A stretch of DNA of 64,000 nucleotides, from positions 1-64,000 of the forward strand of contig JASEFA010000012.1 of NCBI GenBank assembly GCA_030019365.1, read 5' to 3'. The stretch comes from Bacillota bacterium (lineage in GTDB: Bacteria; Bacillota; Sulfobacillia; JACIYH01). Both the position numbers and the translations under genes were made by a program. Each line of letters opens with the position of its first letter. Within the stretch, counting starts at the first letter, position 1. The notes under the pieces were generated by a model. It made no database searches. It had not been told where the DNA came from and saw only the letters and a program-made list of their open reading frames with translations. Below are positions 5,330-36,594 of this stretch, piece after piece.

Positions 5330-6046
5330 TCAGTCAGACCCGAGCCTGCTCGCCGCCACCTGCATCAGCGCCGGGAAATCCAGCACCCCGGCTTCCCCGA
5401 GCAACCGCCCGACCGCTTCCCCTGAGGAGCGGATGTGCCGGTACATGAGCCGCCCCGTTCTCTTTCCGTCTCCCGCCCGGGCCGCCTGCAGGATATCCTG
5501 GTGGCACTTCTGACTGTGGAGAGTCCAGTTGGGGACCACTGCCACCGCCACGGGCGGCATGCCATCCCACAGGATGTCCACCAGGCGCAGCAGGCGACGC
5601 CACGGACACCGCGAACGCAAGCAGGCGTGGAACTCCCGGTTGGCGGTGAGAAAGGTGGTAGTGTCCTTGTCCTGCGCCGCTTCCTCCATGGAGCGGTGAT
5701 ACTCGGCCAGGTCCTCCAGATCCTCATCCGATAGCGACGGCACGGACAGAGCCACGGCCTTGGACTCCAGCAGGGCCCGGAGGTAGTACGACTCCACAAT
5801 GTCCTCCCCCGAGAGGGGCCGCACGACCGCGGTCCCGCGTTCGTCCATCTCCACCAGTCCCTCGGTCTGCAACTGCCTGAGCGCATGCCGCACCGGCATC
5901 CTGCTCACGCCCAGCTCGGAACTGAGATCGGCCTGCGAGAGTCGCTCCCCGGGCTTGACGCGGCCCGTCAGGATGGCCTCGCGCACCGCCATGGTGACGC
6001 AGTCTTCCAGCCTGGGGCTACGACGAAGCACGAAACGGCCAGCCAC
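5330..6046 (-). CDS. GntR-family regulator, FCD (FadR) subfamily
   Basis: A 238-residue regulator. The N-terminal winged helix (about 10-75) has LSQADLSSELGVSRMPVRHAL, and the helical FCD domain (about 85-215) has TFLTANREFHACL and LHSQKCHQDIL, whose His/Asp residues commonly bind metal and a carboxylate effector. It is transcribed towards and just ahead of the liv genes, so control of amino-acid transport is likely. Two palindromes upstream of its start could be its own operator. Confidence 0.88.
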   Translation of the reverse strand: MAGRFVLRRSPRLEDCVTMAVREAILTGRVKPGERLSQADLSSELGVSRMPVRHALRQLQTEGLVEMDERGTAVVRPLSGEDIVESYYLRALLESKAVALSVPSLSDEDLEDLAEYHRSMEEAAQDKDTTTFLTANREFHACLRSRCPWRRLLRLVDILWDGMPPVAVAVVPNWTLHSQKCHQDILQAARAGDGKRTGRLMYRHIRSSGEAVGRLLGEAGVLDFPALMQVAASRLGSD

Positions 6047-6067
6047 AATGACCCCCCTATGGCGACC

Positions 6068-6091
6068 CAGGATCCTGTATAACGGGATCCC
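6068..6091. promoter_or_regulatory. Candidate GntR operator, two adjacent palindromes
   Basis: Two short perfect palindromes, CAGGATCCTG (6068-6077) and GGGATCCC (6084-6091), lie 22-45 bases upstream of the FCD-GntR start. Their shared GGATCC cores are 15 bases apart. The position suggests autoregulation. Sequence is seen directly; the link to the regulator is inference. Confidence 0.4.
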
Positions 6092-6227
6092 AGGAGATCA
6101 TAAGGTGGCTTCGACAGCCGCGCGGAAATTCCTGCTTAATCCGGAATTGCGAACCTTCCGCAACCCAGCGACCCCAGCTCCCGCCCGAAGTTCGAGAATG
6201 ATCGCGTCCACGCCCCTCCGCGGCGCC

Positions 6228-6653
6228 TCATCGGGTTGCTGCCGGACCGACGAGGGGGAGCATCTCAACCCGCAGGCGACGGCGGCGCGGCCCGTCGAAC
6301 TCGGCCAGGAAGATGCCCTGCCAGGTGCCCAGGGCGAGGCACCCCCCCGACACGGGCACGGTGACACCGCAACCCACCAGGGCGGCCTTGATGTGGGCGT
6401 GAGCGTTGCCTTCCCGGTGCTGGTAGGGGCCCGTCACCGGGACCAGGCGGTCCAGCTGGTTCAGGATGTCGGAGAGGACGGCCGGGTCGGTGTTCTCGGT
6501 GACCAGGACGCCCGCTGTGGTGTGGGGGCAGAACACCATACACGCCCCGTCGGCCACGCGGGCGCCGCGCACGATCTCGTCCACCAGGGCGGTGATGTCC
6601 ACCATCTCCGCCCGGGCGTGGGTCTGCACCTCAAGCTGCACGCCGCTCACCAC
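6228..6653 (-). CDS. YjbQ/UPF0047 family protein
   Basis: A 141-residue protein of the UPF0047 (YjbQ) family, recognised from FCPHTTAGVLVTENTDP and from HREGNAHAHIKAALVG, which hold conserved His/Glu residues, plus LALGTWQGIFLAEFDGPRRR at the end. Family members have weak thiamine-phosphate synthase activity, but their true role is uncertain. It sits 6 bases downstream of the formyltetrahydrofolate cyclo-ligase gene, so the two are probably co-transcribed. Confidence 0.88.
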   Translation of the reverse strand: MVSGVQLEVQTHARAEMVDITALVDEIVRGARVADGACMVFCPHTTAGVLVTENTDPAVLSDILNQLDRLVPVTGPYQHREGNAHAHIKAALVGCGVTVPVSGGCLALGTWQGIFLAEFDGPRRRRLRVEMLPLVGPAATR

Positions 6654-8603: not shown

Positions 8604-10172
8604 CTACACGGGAATGTTGCCGTGTTTCTTGGCCGGCCGCGACTCCCGTTTCTGGCTCAGGGCCTCCAGGGCCCGGGCCACGTGCTCACGCGTGCGGGCG
8701 GGGTCGACCACCACATCCACATAACCCCGGGCGGCCGCCACATAGGGGTTGGCAAACCGCTCCCGGTATTCTGCGATCTTCTCCTGGCGCAGCCGGGCGG
8801 GATCCTCCGCCCGCGAGATCTCATCCCGAAAGATAATGTTGGCTGCTCCCTCGGGACCCATTACCGCGATCTCGGCGGTGGGCCAGGCCAGGGCCTGGTC
8901 GCACCCCAGGGCGCGGGCGCACATGGCCAGGTAAGCCCCGCCATACGCCTTGCGCAGGATTACCGTGATCTTGGGGACTGTGGCCTCCGAGTAAGCATAC
9001 AGCAGCTTGGCCCCATGCCTGATGATGCCCCCATACTCCTGGGCGGTCCCGGGCAGATACCCCGGGGTATCCACCAGGGTGAGGAGGGGGATGTTGAAGG
9101 CGTCGCAGAAGCGCACGAAGCGGGCGGCCTTGTCGGAGGCGTTGATGTCCAGGCACCCCGCCAGAACGCGGGGCTGGTTGGCCACCACCCCCACCACCCG
9201 GCCCCCTATGCGTCCGAAACCCACCGCGATGTTCGCCGCATAGCGGGCGTGCACTTCCAGGAAGTCGCCCCCATCCAGCAGGGACAGGATGACATCGTGG
9301 ACGTCGTAGGGCCGGTTGGGATCGGTGGGGACCACCCCGCGCAGGCCGGGTTCCTCCCTTTCCACCGGATCTCCCGTCAGCACCACTGGGGGATCTTCCA
9401 TGTTGTTGGAGGGCAGGAACGAGAGCAGGCGCCGCACCATCTGCAGGCACTGGGGGTCGTCTTCGGCGAAAAAGTGGGCCACCCCGCTCACCGTGCTATG
9501 GGTGGCGGCTCCCCCGAGCTCCTCCATGCTCACCTCTTCCCCGGTGACGGCCTTGATGACCTGGGGCCCGGTGATGAACATCTGGCTGGTGCCCTGCACC
9601 ATGAAGACGAAATCGGTGAGGGCGGGCGAGTAGACGGCACCCCCGGCGCAGGGGCCCATGATCACCGAGATCTGGGGTACCACCCCCGACGAGACGGTAT
9701 TGCGGAAGAATATCTCCCCGTACCCGTTGAGGGCATCCACCCCTTCCTGGATGCGCGCCCCTCCCGAATCGTTGAGGCCCACGAAGGGGGCGCCCGCCCG
9801 CAGGGCCGTGTCCATGACCTTGGTGATCTTGCGGGCGTGCATCTCCCCCAGGCTGCCGCCGATGACGGTGAAGTCCTGGGAGAAGGCGTAGACGATGCGG
9901 CCGTCCACCCGGCCGTAACCCGTCACCACCCCCTCGCCGGGGGCCTCCACTTCCGGCATACCGAACTCAGTGCAGCGGTGGCGCACGAAGGGATCTAGCT
10001 CCGTGAAAGTCCCGGGGTCAAACAGGAGGTCGAGCCTTTCCCGCGCCGTCAGCTTGCCGGCGCGGTGCTGCTTCTCGATGCGCCCGGGCCCGCCCCCGGC
10101 CTGCACCTTCTCCAGGCGAGAGGCCAGTTCCGCCAGCTTGTGTTCCATCGTAATCTCTGACTGTTCGTTCAT
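8604..10172 (-). CDS. Acyl-CoA carboxyltransferase (methylmalonyl-CoA decarboxylase alpha / propionyl-CoA carboxylase beta)
   Basis: A carboxyltransferase of about 522 residues with both crotonase-like halves. Signatures are GKLTARERLDLLFDPGTF, GGSLGEMHARKI, GPCAGGAVYSPAL and KAYGGAYLAMCARALG near the C terminus. It transfers CO2 between biotin and propionyl-/methylmalonyl-CoA. The ATG at 10172 follows GGGAG at 5 bases; a GTG four codons earlier is an alternative. The neighbouring epimerase and mutase genes make methylmalonyl-CoA the likely substrate. Confidence 0.93.
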   Translation of the reverse strand: MNEQSEITMEHKLAELASRLEKVQAGGGPGRIEKQHRAGKLTARERLDLLFDPGTFTELDPFVRHRCTEFGMPEVEAPGEGVVTGYGRVDGRIVYAFSQDFTVIGGSLGEMHARKITKVMDTALRAGAPFVGLNDSGGARIQEGVDALNGYGEIFFRNTVSSGVVPQISVIMGPCAGGAVYSPALTDFVFMVQGTSQMFITGPQVIKAVTGEEVSMEELGGAATHSTVSGVAHFFAEDDPQCLQMVRRLLSFLPSNNMEDPPVVLTGDPVEREEPGLRGVVPTDPNRPYDVHDVILSLLDGGDFLEVHARYAANIAVGFGRIGGRVVGVVANQPRVLAGCLDINASDKAARFVRFCDAFNIPLLTLVDTPGYLPGTAQEYGGIIRHGAKLLYAYSEATVPKITVILRKAYGGAYLAMCARALGCDQALAWPTAEIAVMGPEGAANIIFRDEISRAEDPARLRQEKIAEYRERFANPYVAAARGYVDVVVDPARTREHVARALEALSQKRESRPAKKHGNIPV

Positions 10173-14926: not shown

Positions 14927-15746
14927 GGCGGTCACCTTCCCCGCTCAAGCGAGCGATCAGCTCCCGGTAAGACCGGGTGTACTCGGGCACGTCCTCCGTA
15001 CGGTGAAGCTCGCCGATCAGTACCCTGCCCGCCAGCTCCTCGGGCTTCATGCGCCCGGCCTGCGTCACCGTCACCGCCCTCTCCCTGAACCACTCCAGCA
15101 TGCGCACCGGGTCGGCCATACGGTTGCGCCGTCCGAAGTAGGTGGGGCACTGGGAGAGCACCTCCACGAAGGAGAAACCGTCGTGCCCGAGAGCCCGCGT
15201 CACGTACTCGATGGTCTGGTGCACGTGGTAGGTCGTGCTGCGGGCCACGTAGGTCGCCCCCGCCGCCTGCACCAGCCGGCAGAGGTCGAAATCCCGCTCC
15301 AGGTGCCCGTGCGGCGCCGTGGCGGTCCGGAACCCCGCCGGGGTAAGGGGGGAGTACTGCCCGCTGGTCATCCCGTAGATCCCGTTGTTGAAGCACACGC
15401 AGGTGATGCCCATGTTCCTCCGGGCGGCGTGGATGAGGTGGTTCCCACCGATGGCGGCCAGGTCACCGTCCCCGGCCAGCACCACCACCCGCAGGTCGGG
15501 CCGGGCCAGCTTGATGCCGGTGGCGAAGGCCAGCGCCCTGCCATGGGTGGTGTGCAGGGTATCCATATTGAGGTACCCCACGGCGCGGGACGAGCACCCG
15601 ATCCCGGACACCACCACCGTGCGGTCCGGATCCACCCCCGCCCGCAGCATGGCCCGCACCACGGCTCCCAGGACGATGCCGTGGCCGCAGCCGGCACACC
15701 AGATGTGAGGCAGGTGCTCGGTGCGCAGCAAGCGCAGCCCCTCCAT
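14916..15746 (-). CDS. korB: 2-oxoacid:ferredoxin oxidoreductase, beta (TPP-binding) subunit
   Basis: A 276-residue TPP-binding subunit. HIWCAGCGHGIVLGA opens the domain and GDGDLAAIGGNHLIHAARRN plus NNGIYGMTSGQ form the TPP/Mg site. HTTHGRALAFATGIK is also typical. The start ATG follows a GGAGGGGGTG stretch that overlaps the end of korA. The substrate could be 2-oxoglutarate or branched-chain 2-oxoacids; the neighbouring gdhA favours the first and the liv operon the second. Confidence 0.92.
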   Translation of the reverse strand: MEGLRLLRTEHLPHIWCAGCGHGIVLGAVVRAMLRAGVDPDRTVVVSGIGCSSRAVGYLNMDTLHTTHGRALAFATGIKLARPDLRVVVLAGDGDLAAIGGNHLIHAARRNMGITCVCFNNGIYGMTSGQYSPLTPAGFRTATAPHGHLERDFDLCRLVQAAGATYVARSTTYHVHQTIEYVTRALGHDGFSFVEVLSQCPTYFGRRNRMADPVRMLEWFRERAVTVTQAGRMKPEELAGRVLIGELHRTEDVPEYTRSYRELIARLSGEGDRHER

Positions 15747-31943: not shown

Positions 31944-32693
31944 TCAGACGGCCAGGCGGCGCATCTCCTCGGGTGCCATATCGAAGTTGGAGAACACCCG
32001 CTGCACGTCATCGTGCTCGGACAGGGCATCCACCAGGCGTAACACCTGCTCGGCTTCCTTGCCCGACACGCGCACCGTCGTCTGGGGCACCATGGTGACC
32101 TCGGCGACCTCCGGGCGCATCCCGCTCTGTTCCAGGGCCGCCTTCACCCGGCCCACATCCTCGGGAGCGGTGATCACCTCGTAAGACTCCTCATCGCTCT
32201 GGAAGTCCTCCGCCCCCGCTTCCAGGGCCACGGCGAGGATGGCGTCCTCGCCCCCCACGCTGCGGTCCAGAGAGATGTACCCGCGCTTGCGGAACATCCA
32301 GCTGACGCACCCGGTCTCACCCAGGCTCCCGCCATGCCGGGAGAACAGATACCGCAACTCGCTGGTGGTGCGGTTGCGATTGTCCGTGACCACCTCCAGC
32401 ATGATGGCCACGCCGCCTGGTCCGTAACCTTCGTAGGTGAGCTCCTCGTAGGTCACGCCCTCCAGTTCGCCGGTTCCCCTCTTGATGAGCCTGGTTATGT
32501 TGTCGGCAGGCATGTTGGCGTCGCGGGCCTTCTCCACGGCGATCCGCAGCCGGGTGTTGGCGTCCAGGTTGCCGCCGCCGTGGCGAGCACCCACGATGAT
32601 CTCCCGGGCCAGCCTGGAGAACAGGTTTCCGCGCTCGGCATCCTTCCTGGCCTTGGTATGCTTGATGTTGGCCCACTTGCTGTGGCCGGACAT
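31944..32693 (-). CDS. yebC: YebC/PmpR family transcriptional/translational regulator
   Basis: A 249-residue YebC. It begins MSGHSKWANIKHTKARKDAE and includes NTRLRIAVEKARDANMPADN, YEGYGPGGVAIMLEVVTDN and ETGCVSWMFRKRG. The family includes DNA-binding regulators and, in some bacteria, a ribosome-associated factor for proline-rich peptides, which would suit a proteome with as many Pro runs as seen here. Confidence 0.96.
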   Translation of the reverse strand: MSGHSKWANIKHTKARKDAERGNLFSRLAREIIVGARHGGGNLDANTRLRIAVEKARDANMPADNITRLIKRGTGELEGVTYEELTYEGYGPGGVAIMLEVVTDNRNRTTSELRYLFSRHGGSLGETGCVSWMFRKRGYISLDRSVGGEDAILAVALEAGAEDFQSDEESYEVITAPEDVGRVKAALEQSGMRPEVAEVTMVPQTTVRVSGKEAEQVLRLVDALSEHDDVQRVFSNFDMAPEEMRRLAV

Positions 32694-32711: not shown

Positions 32712-32873
32712 TCAGTAGTCTACTTTCTGCACCACTCCCACTACCCCGTAACGGCTGCGTACCAGCCAGCGGACGATCACCAGCTGTCCCCCTGCTCTGT
32801 GCACCACCCGCCACCCGCGCAGGCGGCCGTGCCGGATACGGTTGCGGGAGCGCGATCCCCGTTGCATGCTCAT
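32712..32873 (-). CDS. Small basic protein of 53 residues, unknown
   Basis: A 53-residue ORF with a strong Shine-Dalgarno (AAGGGGGA) before ATG 32873. Its start overlaps the stop of the E1-like gene (ATGA), indicating translational coupling. The N-terminal third is Arg-rich (MSMQRGSRSRNRIRHGR); the rest forms a predicted beta-rich stretch (GWRVVHRAGGQLVIVRWLV). It does not end in Gly-Gly, so it is not an obvious ubiquitin-like partner. No family is recognised. Confidence 0.55.
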   Translation of the reverse strand: MSMQRGSRSRNRIRHGRLRGWRVVHRAGGQLVIVRWLVRSRYGVVGVVQKVDY

Positions 32874-33598
32874 TCCCCCTTTTGGCCGGAACAGTAGGGA
32901 CATCCGGGATCGGTGTGACATTCCACCTCGCGAAAGCGTCCGGTCATACCGTCAAAGGAGAGGTACCGCCCGGACAGCAGATCTCCCAGATCGAGCAGGA
33001 TCTTCAGGGCGAGGGCGGCCTGCAATACCCCCATGGCCCCCGCCACCAGGATCCCGAGGCCCCCGGTGATCGGGCCGTCGGAGTCGTCCGGAAAGGCGCA
33101 GTTCCAGCACGGCCCCTCTCCGGGTACCACGGTGAGTACCCGTCCTTCCCACCCCCGTACCGTCGCCCCCACCAGGGGCTTGCCGCCGGCCAGGCACAGC
33201 CGGTTCAGTTCCTGCCGCCATCTGGCCGAGCCGACGCACCCCACTATAACATCGTACCTGGGCACCAGGCCGGCAATGTCCGTCCCGACGTACTCATCGA
33301 CGTCCACGGCCGGGTTGAGAGCCCGCAGGCGGCGCGATGCACCCCTTCCGGCCACGTCCCCTCCCCACGCCGGGTAGTGGACGTGAGCGAGGCTCTCCCC
33401 CTCCTCCGGGTCCACCAGACCCAGGCGGCCCACACCGGCGGCAGCCAGGTAGAGGGAAGCCGCCAGGCCCTGGCGGCCCAAACCCACCACCACAGCAGCA
33501 GACCGCAGCAGGCGGCGCTGCCCCTCCACCCCGAAACCGGGGAGGAGGAGGTGCCGACCATATCTCTCCATGTCCTCCCGAGTGAGTACCGGCGTCAT
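32870..33598 (-). CDS. E1-like ThiF/MoeB-family protein, catalytically degenerate copy
   Basis: A 242-residue E1-like protein. It has the N-terminal MoeB segment ERYGRHLLLPGFGVEGQ (with the Arg that in MoeB reaches into the partner site) and structural zinc pairs CWNC and CPYC. The adenylation site is degenerate: the nucleotide loop is GLGRQG, the usual SNLxRQ is ESLAHVHYP, the Lys after GRP is missing, the acidic DxxDN is GCVGS, and the catalytic Cys is absent. It probably does not adenylate by itself. It lies 60 bases downstream of the intact copy. Confidence 0.82.
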   Translation of the reverse strand: MTPVLTREDMERYGRHLLLPGFGVEGQRRLLRSAAVVVGLGRQGLAASLYLAAAGVGRLGLVDPEEGESLAHVHYPAWGGDVAGRGASRRLRALNPAVDVDEYVGTDIAGLVPRYDVIVGCVGSARWRQELNRLCLAGGKPLVGATVRGWEGRVLTVVPGEGPCWNCAFPDDSDGPITGGLGILVAGAMGVLQAALALKILLDLGDLLSGRYLSFDGMTGRFREVECHTDPGCPYCSGQKGE

Positions 33599-33658
33599 GA
33601 ACTCCTCCGGCTTCGTCCTCCCCCAGCCCCCCGCTCGCCGCGGAGTGCACCCCGCCCC

Positions 33659-34378
33659 TCAGCAGGTGCCGTAATCATCCGCCAGGCGGGTGATGCGGGG
33701 CCCGTCCCCGCACACGGGGCAGCGGGGGTCACGGCTCAGGGCCACCTCGTCCCAGGTCATGAGGCGGGCATCATAGAGAAGCAGCCTGCCCCGGTAGGTC
33801 TCCCCCCGCCCGGTCAGGTAACGCATGACGTCCATGGCCTGCAGGCAACCGATGAGCCCCGGCACCGGACCGAATATCCCGGCTTCCCGGCAGGTGGGTA
33901 CCGACCCCGCGGGCGGAGGTTCCGGGAAAAGACAACGCAGGCACGGCCCCTCTCCGGGGAAGAACAGGCTGGCCTGACCCTCGAAGCGGAACACCGCACC
34001 GTACGATAGGGGCTTCCCCAGCAGGTGGCAGGCATCGTTCAGGAGATACCTGGTGGCGAAGTTGTCGCAGGCGTCCACCACCACGCCGTACGGGGCCAGG
34101 ACAGATTCGGCGTTATCCCTGGTGAGCCGTACGGGGTAGAGGTCGATCTCGAGATCGGGTCGAACCTCTCTCAGCCTGTCGGCGGCTGACTCCACCTTGG
34201 GTCGCCCCAGGTCGGGCGTGGAGTGAATCACCTGGCGCTGCAGATTCGACATCTCCACCGCGTCGCCGTCCACCAAACCCAGCCTGCCGATGCCCGCCAG
34301 GGCCAGATACAGGCTGGAAGCAGAGCCCAGGCCGCCGGCCCCCACCACCACTGCTGAAGCCTGCCGGAGGTACTCCAT
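33659..34378 (-). CDS. E1-like ThiF/MoeB-family adenylyltransferase, catalytically intact copy
   Basis: A 239-residue E1-like protein with all active-site parts: GAGGLG (13-18), Asp37, SNLQRQ with Arg48, GRPK with Lys61, DACDN with Asp105, and the conserved Cys163 in PTCREAGIFGPVPG. Zinc pairs are CLRC (146-149) and CPVC (220-223). It lacks the N-terminal RYxRQ segment of MoeB; the ATG has AGGAGG at 5 bases, so this start is real. It ends YGTC. Such enzymes adenylate a ubiquitin-like sulfur carrier or peptide; no ThiS/MoaD gene lies nearby. Confidence 0.85.
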   Translation of the reverse strand: MEYLRQASAVVVGAGGLGSASSLYLALAGIGRLGLVDGDAVEMSNLQRQVIHSTPDLGRPKVESAADRLREVRPDLEIDLYPVRLTRDNAESVLAPYGVVVDACDNFATRYLLNDACHLLGKPLSYGAVFRFEGQASLFFPGEGPCLRCLFPEPPPAGSVPTCREAGIFGPVPGLIGCLQAMDVMRYLTGRGETYRGRLLLYDARLMTWDEVALSRDPRCPVCGDGPRITRLADDYGTC

Positions 34379-34439
34379 GCCTACCTCCTGACAGCACGTC
34401 CCGTGCCGTGCTCTATCGTAGCAATGTGCAGGAGGCCTG

Positions 34440-35147
34440 TCAACGCGGGGTGTACAGCATTCCCGGAGGTACCTCTCCCACGATGACGGTCTGGGCCACG
34501 GGAATGGAGCAGGTGGTTTCCACCCACCGGCTCCAGAAGGGGCTGGCCACGGTCACCCCCAGCACCACGTGCAGGTACAGGGCGTACCGGGTCTGGTTGA
34601 TCCCCGCCCCCTCGAAGCTGTCCCGGAAATCTATCCGCGCCGTCCCCACCGGGCTCACCCGTACCGGAATGCGGGGGCCCCACCCCGCCCACAGACCGTT
34701 GCCCAGGAGCTGGCCCAGCGGAATGTACAACAGCCAGTGATCCTGCCGGCGGATCTCTTCCTGCAGGGCGGCCAGCACCCCGGCTGCCATGCGCTGCATC
34801 GTGGCAATGTCGGGCTGCACGTACCGCACCTGACCCCCGTCCCCCGGCTGTACCCGGATCAGGTCCCGGCCCGCATACTCCGCCATTACCTGATCCAGGG
34901 CCCGGTAGACGGCCTGGTTGGTCAGCAGGACCGCTTCCCCCTCGGCCCGAGCCCACAGAGAAGCCATCACCTGCCCGGCGCCCGCCCAGCCCACCAGGGC
35001 CAGGATGACGAGGCAGCTTGCGACCGCCGCCGTCCACCTCCGCCGCCGGGAAGAGCGCGGCCGCGTTCGTCCCCCCGCACTGCCCCTCCCCCGGCTCCGC
35101 CACCTGGGGTAGAGGAGGGAGCGGTACCACCAGCCGCGGAGACTCAC
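34440..35147 (-). CDS. yunB: Sporulation protein YunB
   Basis: A 235-residue protein with an N-terminal membrane helix (AAVASCLVILALVGWAGAG) and the YunB domain: LLYIPLGQLLGNGLWAGWGP, then GINQTRYALYLHVVLGVTV and AQTVIVGEVPPGMLY. YunB is expressed in the mother cell under SigE and is needed for efficient sporulation. GTG 35147 is chosen for GAGG at 8 bases; the upstream frame is Arg/Ala-rich and unlike a protein. Confidence 0.85.
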   Translation of the reverse strand: MSLRGWWYRSLLYPRWRSRGRGSAGGRTRPRSSRRRRWTAAVASCLVILALVGWAGAGQVMASLWARAEGEAVLLTNQAVYRALDQVMAEYAGRDLIRVQPGDGGQVRYVQPDIATMQRMAAGVLAALQEEIRRQDHWLLYIPLGQLLGNGLWAGWGPRIPVRVSPVGTARIDFRDSFEGAGINQTRYALYLHVVLGVTVASPFWSRWVETTCSIPVAQTVIVGEVPPGMLYTPR

Positions 35148-35301
35148 GGTATCATCCTCGCCCAGCCAGCTTATGCCCGCACGGCGGTGGCGGTGCGCGC
35201 GGAGGGGGCGCGCGCGGCGGTGGTGCGGCCGCGCGCGGACGCTGCAGGCTGCGCGCAGGTCACGCGGGACGCGGCGGCGGGCGCGAAGCGGGCAGAATAT
35301 G

Positions 35302-36594
35302 TTATGGGGCCCAGCGCACGCGCACGAAGCGCCGCCAGCCCACCTGCAGGACACTCTCGTTGGGAACCTCGCAGGACGCCTCCGGGTCGGTCACCTGCAG
35401 CCCGTTGAGCCGCACCCCACCCTGCTCGATGAGACGGCGCCCTTCGCTGTGGGATGAGGCCAGGCCTGCCAGCACCAGCAACCGGGGCAACCACACCCGC
35501 ACAGGAGCCTCGCCTGCGGGCGCATCCGCCGCGCCCTTGGCCGCTGCCCGGCCCGGCCCGGTTACGGGCCCCAGAGAGGGGAGGTCCGATACGCCTGCCT
35601 CGCGGAGGGAAACGGTCCTTTCAGGTACGTCGGCGGGGATCTCCCGCCGGGAGAATACGCGCACGAAGCGTTCTTCCGCCACCCGCGCTGCCCTGGCCCC
35701 GTGGTAGATGGTGACGACCTCGCGGGCCAGCCGCATCTTGGCCTGGCGCGGGTTGAGCTGACCCGCCTCCATGTCCCGCATCATCGCTCTTACCTCTGCC
35801 ATGGGCACGTCGGTGCACAGCTCGAAGTATGCGCCGAGTAAGCTGTCCGGAACGGACATGGTCTTACCGTACATCTGGTCGGGCGGTTCGGTGATCCCGA
35901 TGTAATTGCCCAGGGACTTGGACATCTTCTGGACTCCGTCCAGGCCCACCAGGAGGGGCATGGTGAGCACCACCTGGGGGATCAAACCGTACTCCCGCAT
36001 CACGTCCCGGGTGAGGAGGAAATTGAAGGTCTGGTCGGTTCCCCCGAGCTCCACGTCGGTGCGGGTGGCAATGGAGTCGTAAGCCTGGGCCAGGGGGTAG
36101 AGGAGCTCGTGCACGCTGATGGGCCGACCCTCCCGGAAGCGGGCGGCGAACTCATCCCGCTCCAGCATGCGGGCCACCGTGTAACGGGAGCACAGCTCCA
36201 CCACTTGATAGAAGTCCAAGCGGCCCAGCCAGTGGGAGTTGAAGAGGATCTCGGTGCGCCCGGGATCCAGGATGCGGTACACCTGCTCCTCGTACGTGCG
36301 GGCGTTGGCCCGCACCTCCTCCTCGGTGAGCGGCTTGCGCGTCTCCGAACGACCGGAGGGGTCTCCGATCCGCCCCGTGAAGTCGCCCACGATGAACATC
36401 ACCTGGTGCCCCATATCCTGGAACTGGCGCAGCTTGCGCAGCACCACCGCGTGCCCCAGGTGGATGTCGGGAGCGCTGGGGTCGGCACCCAGCTTCACCC
36501 GCAGGGCGCGCCCGTTCTCCGCTGCCTCCTTGAGCTTGCCCTCCAGCTCCTCGGGCAACCACACCGCTGCGGCTCCCCGCAGCAGCGTCTCCAT
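35302..36594 (-). CDS. tyrS: Tyrosyl-tRNA synthetase
   Basis: A 430-residue class I synthetase of the TyrZ type. The HIGH-like motif is DIHLGHAVVL, KMSKS is QKMSKSLGNYIGI, and GGTDQTFNFLL binds tyrosine. The C-terminal S4-like domain has LLVLAGLASSHSEGRRLIEQ. The ATG at 36594 is the conserved start; a TTG 21 bases upstream is a possible alternative. No T-box leader was recognised upstream; an extended -10 (TGGTACAAT) lies at about 36656-36648. Confidence 0.95.
   Translation of the reverse strand: METLLRGAAAVWLPEELEGKLKEAAENGRALRVKLGADPSAPDIHLGHAVVLRKLRQFQDMGHQVMFIVGDFTGRIGDPSGRSETRKPLTEEEVRANARTYEEQVYRILDPGRTEILFNSHWLGRLDFYQVVELCSRYTVARMLERDEFAARFREGRPISVHELLYPLAQAYDSIATRTDVELGGTDQTFNFLLTRDVMREYGLIPQVVLTMPLLVGLDGVQKMSKSLGNYIGITEPPDQMYGKTMSVPDSLLGAYFELCTDVPMAEVRAMMRDMEAGQLNPRQAKMRLAREVVTIYHGARAARVAEERFVRVFSRREIPADVPERTVSLREAGVSDLPSLGPVTGPGRAAAKGAADAPAGEAPVRVWLPRLLVLAGLASSHSEGRRLIEQGGVRLNGLQVTDPEASCEVPNESVLQVGWRRFVRVRWAP

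Follow-up and report, generated by a model that had tools for sequence, protein, structure and literature searches.

Adjacent MoeB-type proteins with complementary losses in Bacillota: a probable active/inactive heterodimeric E1

Two ThiF-family genes with divided features

The window analysed here consists of the first 64,000 nucleotides of contig JASEFA010000012.1 (assembly GCA_030019365.1), a 68.2-kb contig in the 2.94-Mb genome of a Bacillota bacterium of the class Sulfobacillia, and our subject is a pair of ThiF-family open reading frames (ORFs) lying on its minus strand between yunB and yebC. The upstream gene, A (33659-34378, minus strand), encodes an armless MoeB-type adenylyltransferase of 239 amino acids (PF00899, 251.8 bits, E 6.2e-75), the predicted active subunit, and the downstream gene, B (32870-33598, minus strand), encodes an arm-bearing, catalytically degenerate paralogue of 242 amino acids (PF00899, 122.8 bits, E 1.7e-35), the predicted inactive subunit. 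The two genes are separated by a spacer of 60 nt (33599-33658) and are in one frame, with only the TGA of A between them. On the A side the pair is flanked by yunB (34440-35354, minus strand; a Spore_YunB match) and on the B side by yebC (31944-32693, minus strand; identified by eye). We think it very probable that the A and B proteins form an obligate active/inactive heterodimeric E1.

When aligned to E. coli MoeB, the A protein of the window keeps D37, D39, N45, R48, Q49, K61, D105 and C163, which correspond to MoeB D62, D64, N70, R73, Q74, K86, D130 and C187. Its first residue falls at about MoeB residue 26, so that the N-terminal RYxRQ arm is absent, and its best match among solved structures (MoeB 1jw9, E 1.4e-50) runs from MoeB residue 27 onward. 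In B, R12, Y13, R15, H16, G26 and Q27 correspond to MoeB R11, Y12, R14, Q15, G25 and Q26, the codons of the RYGRH motif (residues 12-16, aligned to MoeB R11-Q15) lying at 33551-33565 on the minus strand, and R42, a gap, L70, A83, G123 and P176 are found at the positions of MoeB G41, N70, R73, K86, D130 and C187. The first-pass annotation of this DNA had described an upstream copy that retains Asp37, Arg48, Lys61, Asp105 and Cys163 without an RYxRQ segment, and a downstream copy that retains the arm and has lost the Arg, Lys and Asp of the ATP site together with the Cys; both descriptions match the MoeB alignment.

The same division holds in a joint alignment of the pairs from eight genomes, namely the window genome (G000) and its congeners G001 and G002, four genomes of family f23 (G024, G055, G142 and G140) and one of family f31 (G036). 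The equivalents of G41, D62, D64, N70, R73, Q74, K86, D130 and C187 are present in all eight A proteins, none of which has a residue at MoeB R11, Y12 or R14. All eight B proteins have the equivalents of R11, R14, G25 and Q26, their arm residues R12, R15 and H16 being invariant, and none has N70, D130 or C187; an Arg occurs at R73 in one of the eight and at the K86 position in four. The four zinc cysteines are found in both proteins of the window and, across the genomes, are complete in 8/8 A and 7/8 B. In terms of the traits of MoeB and ThiF, the Gly/Asp/Arg/Lys/Asp set of the ATP site is present in every A and lost in B, and the combination of an RYxRQ/H arm with an ATP site in one chain occurs in 0/8 A. 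The residue complementarity of A and B is complete.

Conservation of the pair and selection on B

The first-pass annotation had called for a survey of the co-occurrence of the two types, and our search of 154 genomes of the class showed them to be co-conserved: A and B are adjacent and in the same order in the eight genomes named above, which represent three families, and the order tyrS-yunB-A-B is kept in 8/8. It had also considered that the intact copy might carry a normal N-terminal extension in close homologues, which did not occur, A being armless in all eight. B occurs solely beside an armless A (8/154 class genomes), and no further degenerate B was found in the 154 class genomes or in a 398-genome sample of the phylum, where the highest-scoring other matches were all intact. 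The stop of A and the start of B overlap by 4 bp (ATGA or GTGA) in G024, G055, G142, G140 and G036, as expected for partners with coupled translation.

The arm is present in 56/56 intact relatives from the class and phylum, with R14, R73, K86 and D130 all there in each of them, and in 80/80 intact MoeB-type proteins from other phyla, which were retrieved with the A profile and served only as a control for the arm; a query with B in the same contig collection gave no hit. Since it is missing from 8/8 A that have a B, versus 0/136 intact relatives without one, the double loss goes beyond chance, the eight pairs sharing ancestry and not representing eight independent events. In the phylogenetic tree B forms one group (99/88), within each lineage the branching order of the A sequences mirrors that of the B sequences, and a single clade of A is not rejected by the approximately unbiased test (p-AU 0.37).

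B is under purifying selection. For A the ratio of non-synonymous to synonymous substitution rates (dN/dS, Nei-Gojobori) is 0.09-0.14 in the window genus and 0.15-0.23 in the presumably Symbiobacterium-like group of G024; for B it is 0.19-0.30 and 0.25-0.41, respectively. Between families A is evenly conserved along the chain (51-64% identity), and B goes from 56% identity in the arm and 59% in the beta-alpha unit after it down to 24% in the segment that was once the ATP loop and in the one that follows. The strong conservation of the arm, though the pocket of B is lost, matches the prediction of an arm that acts in trans.

The PF00899 proteins of G024 (an assembly of a single contig of 3,566,135 bp), G055, G142 and G036 are A and B alone. 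Each of these four genomes has 5-7 ThiS-family matches, some of the ThiS-like proteins terminating in Gly-Gly, plus one or two JAB proteases. Judging from gene content, the A-B pair would be the sole candidate activator found in them, if the carriers are activated at all.

Proposed heterodimer, known systems and alternatives

The arm of A being gone, an arm would have to come from B, and we propose that the ATP pocket of A would be completed across the dimer by the arm of B, including its Arg15 (equivalent to MoeB Arg14). B itself would be devoid of ATP or adenylate chemistry, retaining only the fold, the zinc site, the dimer face and the arm. The heterodimerisation, its obligate character and the action of the arm in trans are what we infer from residue complementarity, co-conservation, selection on B, the genomes in which the pair is the sole E1 and a fusion model built from a deep alignment; the same idea, put forward in the first-pass annotation, is thus supported. 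As for the origin of the pair, a MoeB gene was probably duplicated at a tyrS-yunB-MoeB-JAB-(yebC) locus in this class, the two copies then undergoing complementary loss. This origin would be separate from that of the eukaryotic heterodimers, as had also been suggested from the start, and a separate origin fits the much greater similarity of A to bacterial MoeB than to the E1s of eukaryotes. The wider proposal, that of a split heterodimeric E1 derived from the bacterial MoeB family independently of both eukaryotes and BilD, and acting as the sole E1 for all ThiS/MoaD-type carriers in Symbiobacterium-like bacteria, appears to us a likely one.

If this is true, it would show that an obligate heterodimer can become fixed through the loss of the pocket in one subunit and of the arm in the other, with no need for Cys domains, E2s or protein conjugation. 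Arguments about how a homodimer turned into an active/inactive E1 usually start from the eukaryotic end points alone, and this transition seems to have taken place in bacteria as a separate event. Moreover, relatives display both a single-copy state, at the same yunB/yebC locus, and a near-tandem state of intact MoeB genes, so that its course can be reconstructed and put to the test with proteins that are small and soluble.

In the eukaryotic heterodimers NAE1-UBA3 and SAE1-UBA2, the Arg is supplied by the inactive subunit. Our pair resembles them in having separate armless active and arm-bearing inactive ThiF subunits. In sequence, the profile of B hits SAE1, the inactive subunit for SUMO, and the N-terminal inactive half of UBA1/UBA7, and A hits UBA3, UBA2 and the active halves of E1s. 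Unlike these heterodimers, however, neither A (almost wholly PF00899) nor B contains the catalytic-Cys domain, FCCH or UFD, and A is only about 25% identical to UBA3, versus 50-56% to bacterial MoeB-type proteins, its best solved matches being 1jw9 and 1zud. With E. coli MoeB and ThiF the pair shares the fold, the ATP-site residues (in A) and the RYxR[QH] arm and zinc CxxC...CxxC motif (in B), but those two enzymes form homodimers in which both active sites are equal (PMC12355090), whereas the pair distributes the features over two genes. In the yeast Tcd1-Tcd2 pair of ThiF-fold tRNA ct6A dehydratases, inactive Tcd1 gives a finger Arg59 to its active partner, and this finger is reported as non-essential (PMC13139853). 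Tcd1-Tcd2 is thus similar to the heterodimer predicted here in that an inactive paralogue supplies an arginine, and it differs in being eukaryotic, in its tRNA substrate and in an extra C-terminal domain.

Among bacteria, BilD of the Bil antiviral operon is described as a single polypeptide that carries a Cys domain besides its inactive and active adenylation domains, and that acts with an E2 and an ISG15-like protein (PMC11354881). BilD is like our pair in being a bacterial pseudo-dimer of inactive and active adenylation domains, and unlike it in that A and B are two ORFs split by a TGA and 60 nt, lack a Cys domain, have no E2 seen in their neighbourhood and occur in a setting of sulfur-carrier genes. 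Apart from the present pair, active and inactive halves as separate subunits are not known outside eukaryotes. In a literature search lacking most subscription papers, BilD, with its single chain, was the one bacterial active/inactive precedent that came up, and no report of a two-gene bacterial active/inactive E1 was found.

The structural compatibility of the two proteins with an E1 was considered on a chain of A, linker and B, obtained by read-through with translation table 4 (TGA = Trp), which gives an uninterrupted 502 residues. An AlphaFold2 model of this fusion, made without templates and with 56 arm-bearing MoeB rows added on the B half of the alignment, reached a predicted local distance difference test score (pLDDT) of 79 and a predicted template modelling score (pTM) of 0.70. 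Both of its halves were superposed together by VIA-align on UBA7 (404 residues, 3.8 Å, Z 28.6), on Uba1 (406 residues, 3.6 Å, Z 26.6), on UBA6 (412 residues, 3.8 Å, Z 26.9) and on the bacterial E1 chain 8tz0_A (351 residues, 2.9 Å, Z 27.5), all of this with a sequential aligner that necessarily pairs A with the N-terminal half. The 8tz0 structure is titled as a bacterial complex of E1, E2 and ubiquitin-like protein (E1-E2-Ubl), and we assume it to be that of BilD. This model shows that A and B can adopt the pseudo-dimer form of an E1.

Two other explanations should be weighed before the heterodimer is accepted. It is extremely improbable that a frameshift or a wrongly assigned start has hidden a normal arm in A: about 50 codons are open upstream of A, and one stretch is faintly arm-like (HCYDRARHG, read from the DNA), but this frame contains no in-frame ATG, GTG or TTG. 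A sigma-A type promoter, TTGACA-17-TACGAT (34415-34443, minus strand; 10/12 matches, 0.2 expected by chance), has the end of its TACGAT (-10) box about 37 bp before the ATG of A, which is preceded by a strong ribosome-binding site, AGGAGGT (34383-34389, minus strand; the same in G001 and G002). The promoter, leader and Shine-Dalgarno (SD) sequence of A are nearly identical across the three congeners (G000, G001 and G002), a 1-nt indel in the leader of one congener lies inside the arm-like stretch and would break any upstream reading frame, and the five other genomes have an armless A behind unrelated leaders. Since there is no upstream in-frame start, the promoter and SD stand just upstream and the congener leader has an indel, the start of A is sound; a mis-annotated start was rejected on these grounds, and the truncated N-terminus of A is real. 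It is hardly credible either that B is a pseudogene decaying after duplication, with the short N-terminus of A a chance truncation. B indeed diverges faster than A (dN 0.188 versus 0.057 between G000 and G001), but its frame is open in 8/8 over a very deep divergence (35% identity), its arm does not vary and A is truncated in all three lineages. A dN/dS well under 1 led us to discard B as a pseudogene, and this explanation is already contradicted by the conservation data.

Several other points weigh against an obligate heterodimer. An earlier AlphaFold2 prediction of the fusion, from a shallower alignment comprising the B rows and a single A row, gave a pLDDT of 67 and a pTM of 0.54; it formed two ThiF folds with no E1 arrangement, and was not retained as support for an E1. 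Modelling may pull any two ThiF domains of a single chain together as in a MoeB dimer, so that the better model shows compatibility and not a preference over homodimers. The eight pairs may go back to one origin and are phylogenetically non-independent. MoeB and ThiF reportedly do not depend on their arginine finger, which is lacking in E. coli TcdA (PMC13139853); by analogy, a homodimer of armless A could have some activity, and the role of B and its obligate character may rest on the whole arm and the dimer face rather than on one Arg. Furthermore, G000-G002 and G140 encode other E1s, which could also partner A. These last points, together with the retention of the fold and zinc cysteines in B, favour the alternative that armless A functions as a homodimer or alongside some other E1 in the same cell, and that B is a pseudoenzyme with a separate role such as carrier binding or regulation. 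We nevertheless regard this alternative as unlikely, because A has lost its arm strictly where B is present, because few parts of B are as well conserved as its arm despite the lost pocket, because four genomes lack a third ThiF protein and because the genes overlap by 4 bp in five.

Sulfur-carrier setting and minor observations

Which carriers the A-B heterodimer would serve can be approached from the neighbouring genes. Several relatives were read partly by eye at the corresponding locus: L080 has a single intact MoeB followed by JAB, with TusA, a ThiS-like carrier and cysK nearby, and L091 has a single intact MoeB, JAB, a ThiS-cysK ORF and yebC. In G019 two intact arm-bearing MoeBs (L045:3896-4729 and 5508-6320, both minus strand) lie beside JAB, ThiS and yebC. 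Downstream of the pair itself lie JAB in G036 and, in G140, cysK and a gene resembling phosphoadenosine phosphosulfate (PAPS) reductase; in the window genome no JAB, ThiS-like carrier or cysteine synthase lies next to it. We lean, by a small measure, towards the view that A-B is an E1 for loading a sulfur carrier, for which a CysO-like pathway to cysteine would be the simplest setting.

The two MoeB copies of L045 possibly represent a tandem-duplicate state, though they are placed in different clades of the tree. The ORF of L091 that contains both a ThiS-like domain and cysteine synthase (L091:3387-4514, minus strand), adjoining MoeB and JAB, may be a carrier-enzyme fusion. About 11 ThiS/MoaD-family matches above the Pfam cut-off occur in the window genome (contigs C16, C9, C4, C6, C2, C17 and C1), an apparently large repertoire of sulfur-carrier-like proteins. 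On contig C10 of the same genome, partial ThiF-family matches at 9523-9774 (minus strand) and 15486-15638 (plus strand), some 6 kb apart, may be what is left of an E1 gene that was broken or rearranged.

A GCACG...CGTGC inverted repeat (34394-34411, minus strand) stands between the promoter and the ribosome site of A and is kept in the three congeners; it could be an operator or a leader hairpin. In G024 an ORF for a reverse transcriptase of the group II intron type (L039:3648-5597, plus strand; read by eye) is located between yunB and A. Finally, a small and very basic ORF of 51 amino acids (MQRGSRSRN...VVQKVDY; 32712-32867, minus strand) begins 2 nt past the stop of B; a Pfam search with it gave no match, and it is kept in the three congeners, with a dN/dS of about 0.17 for two of them.
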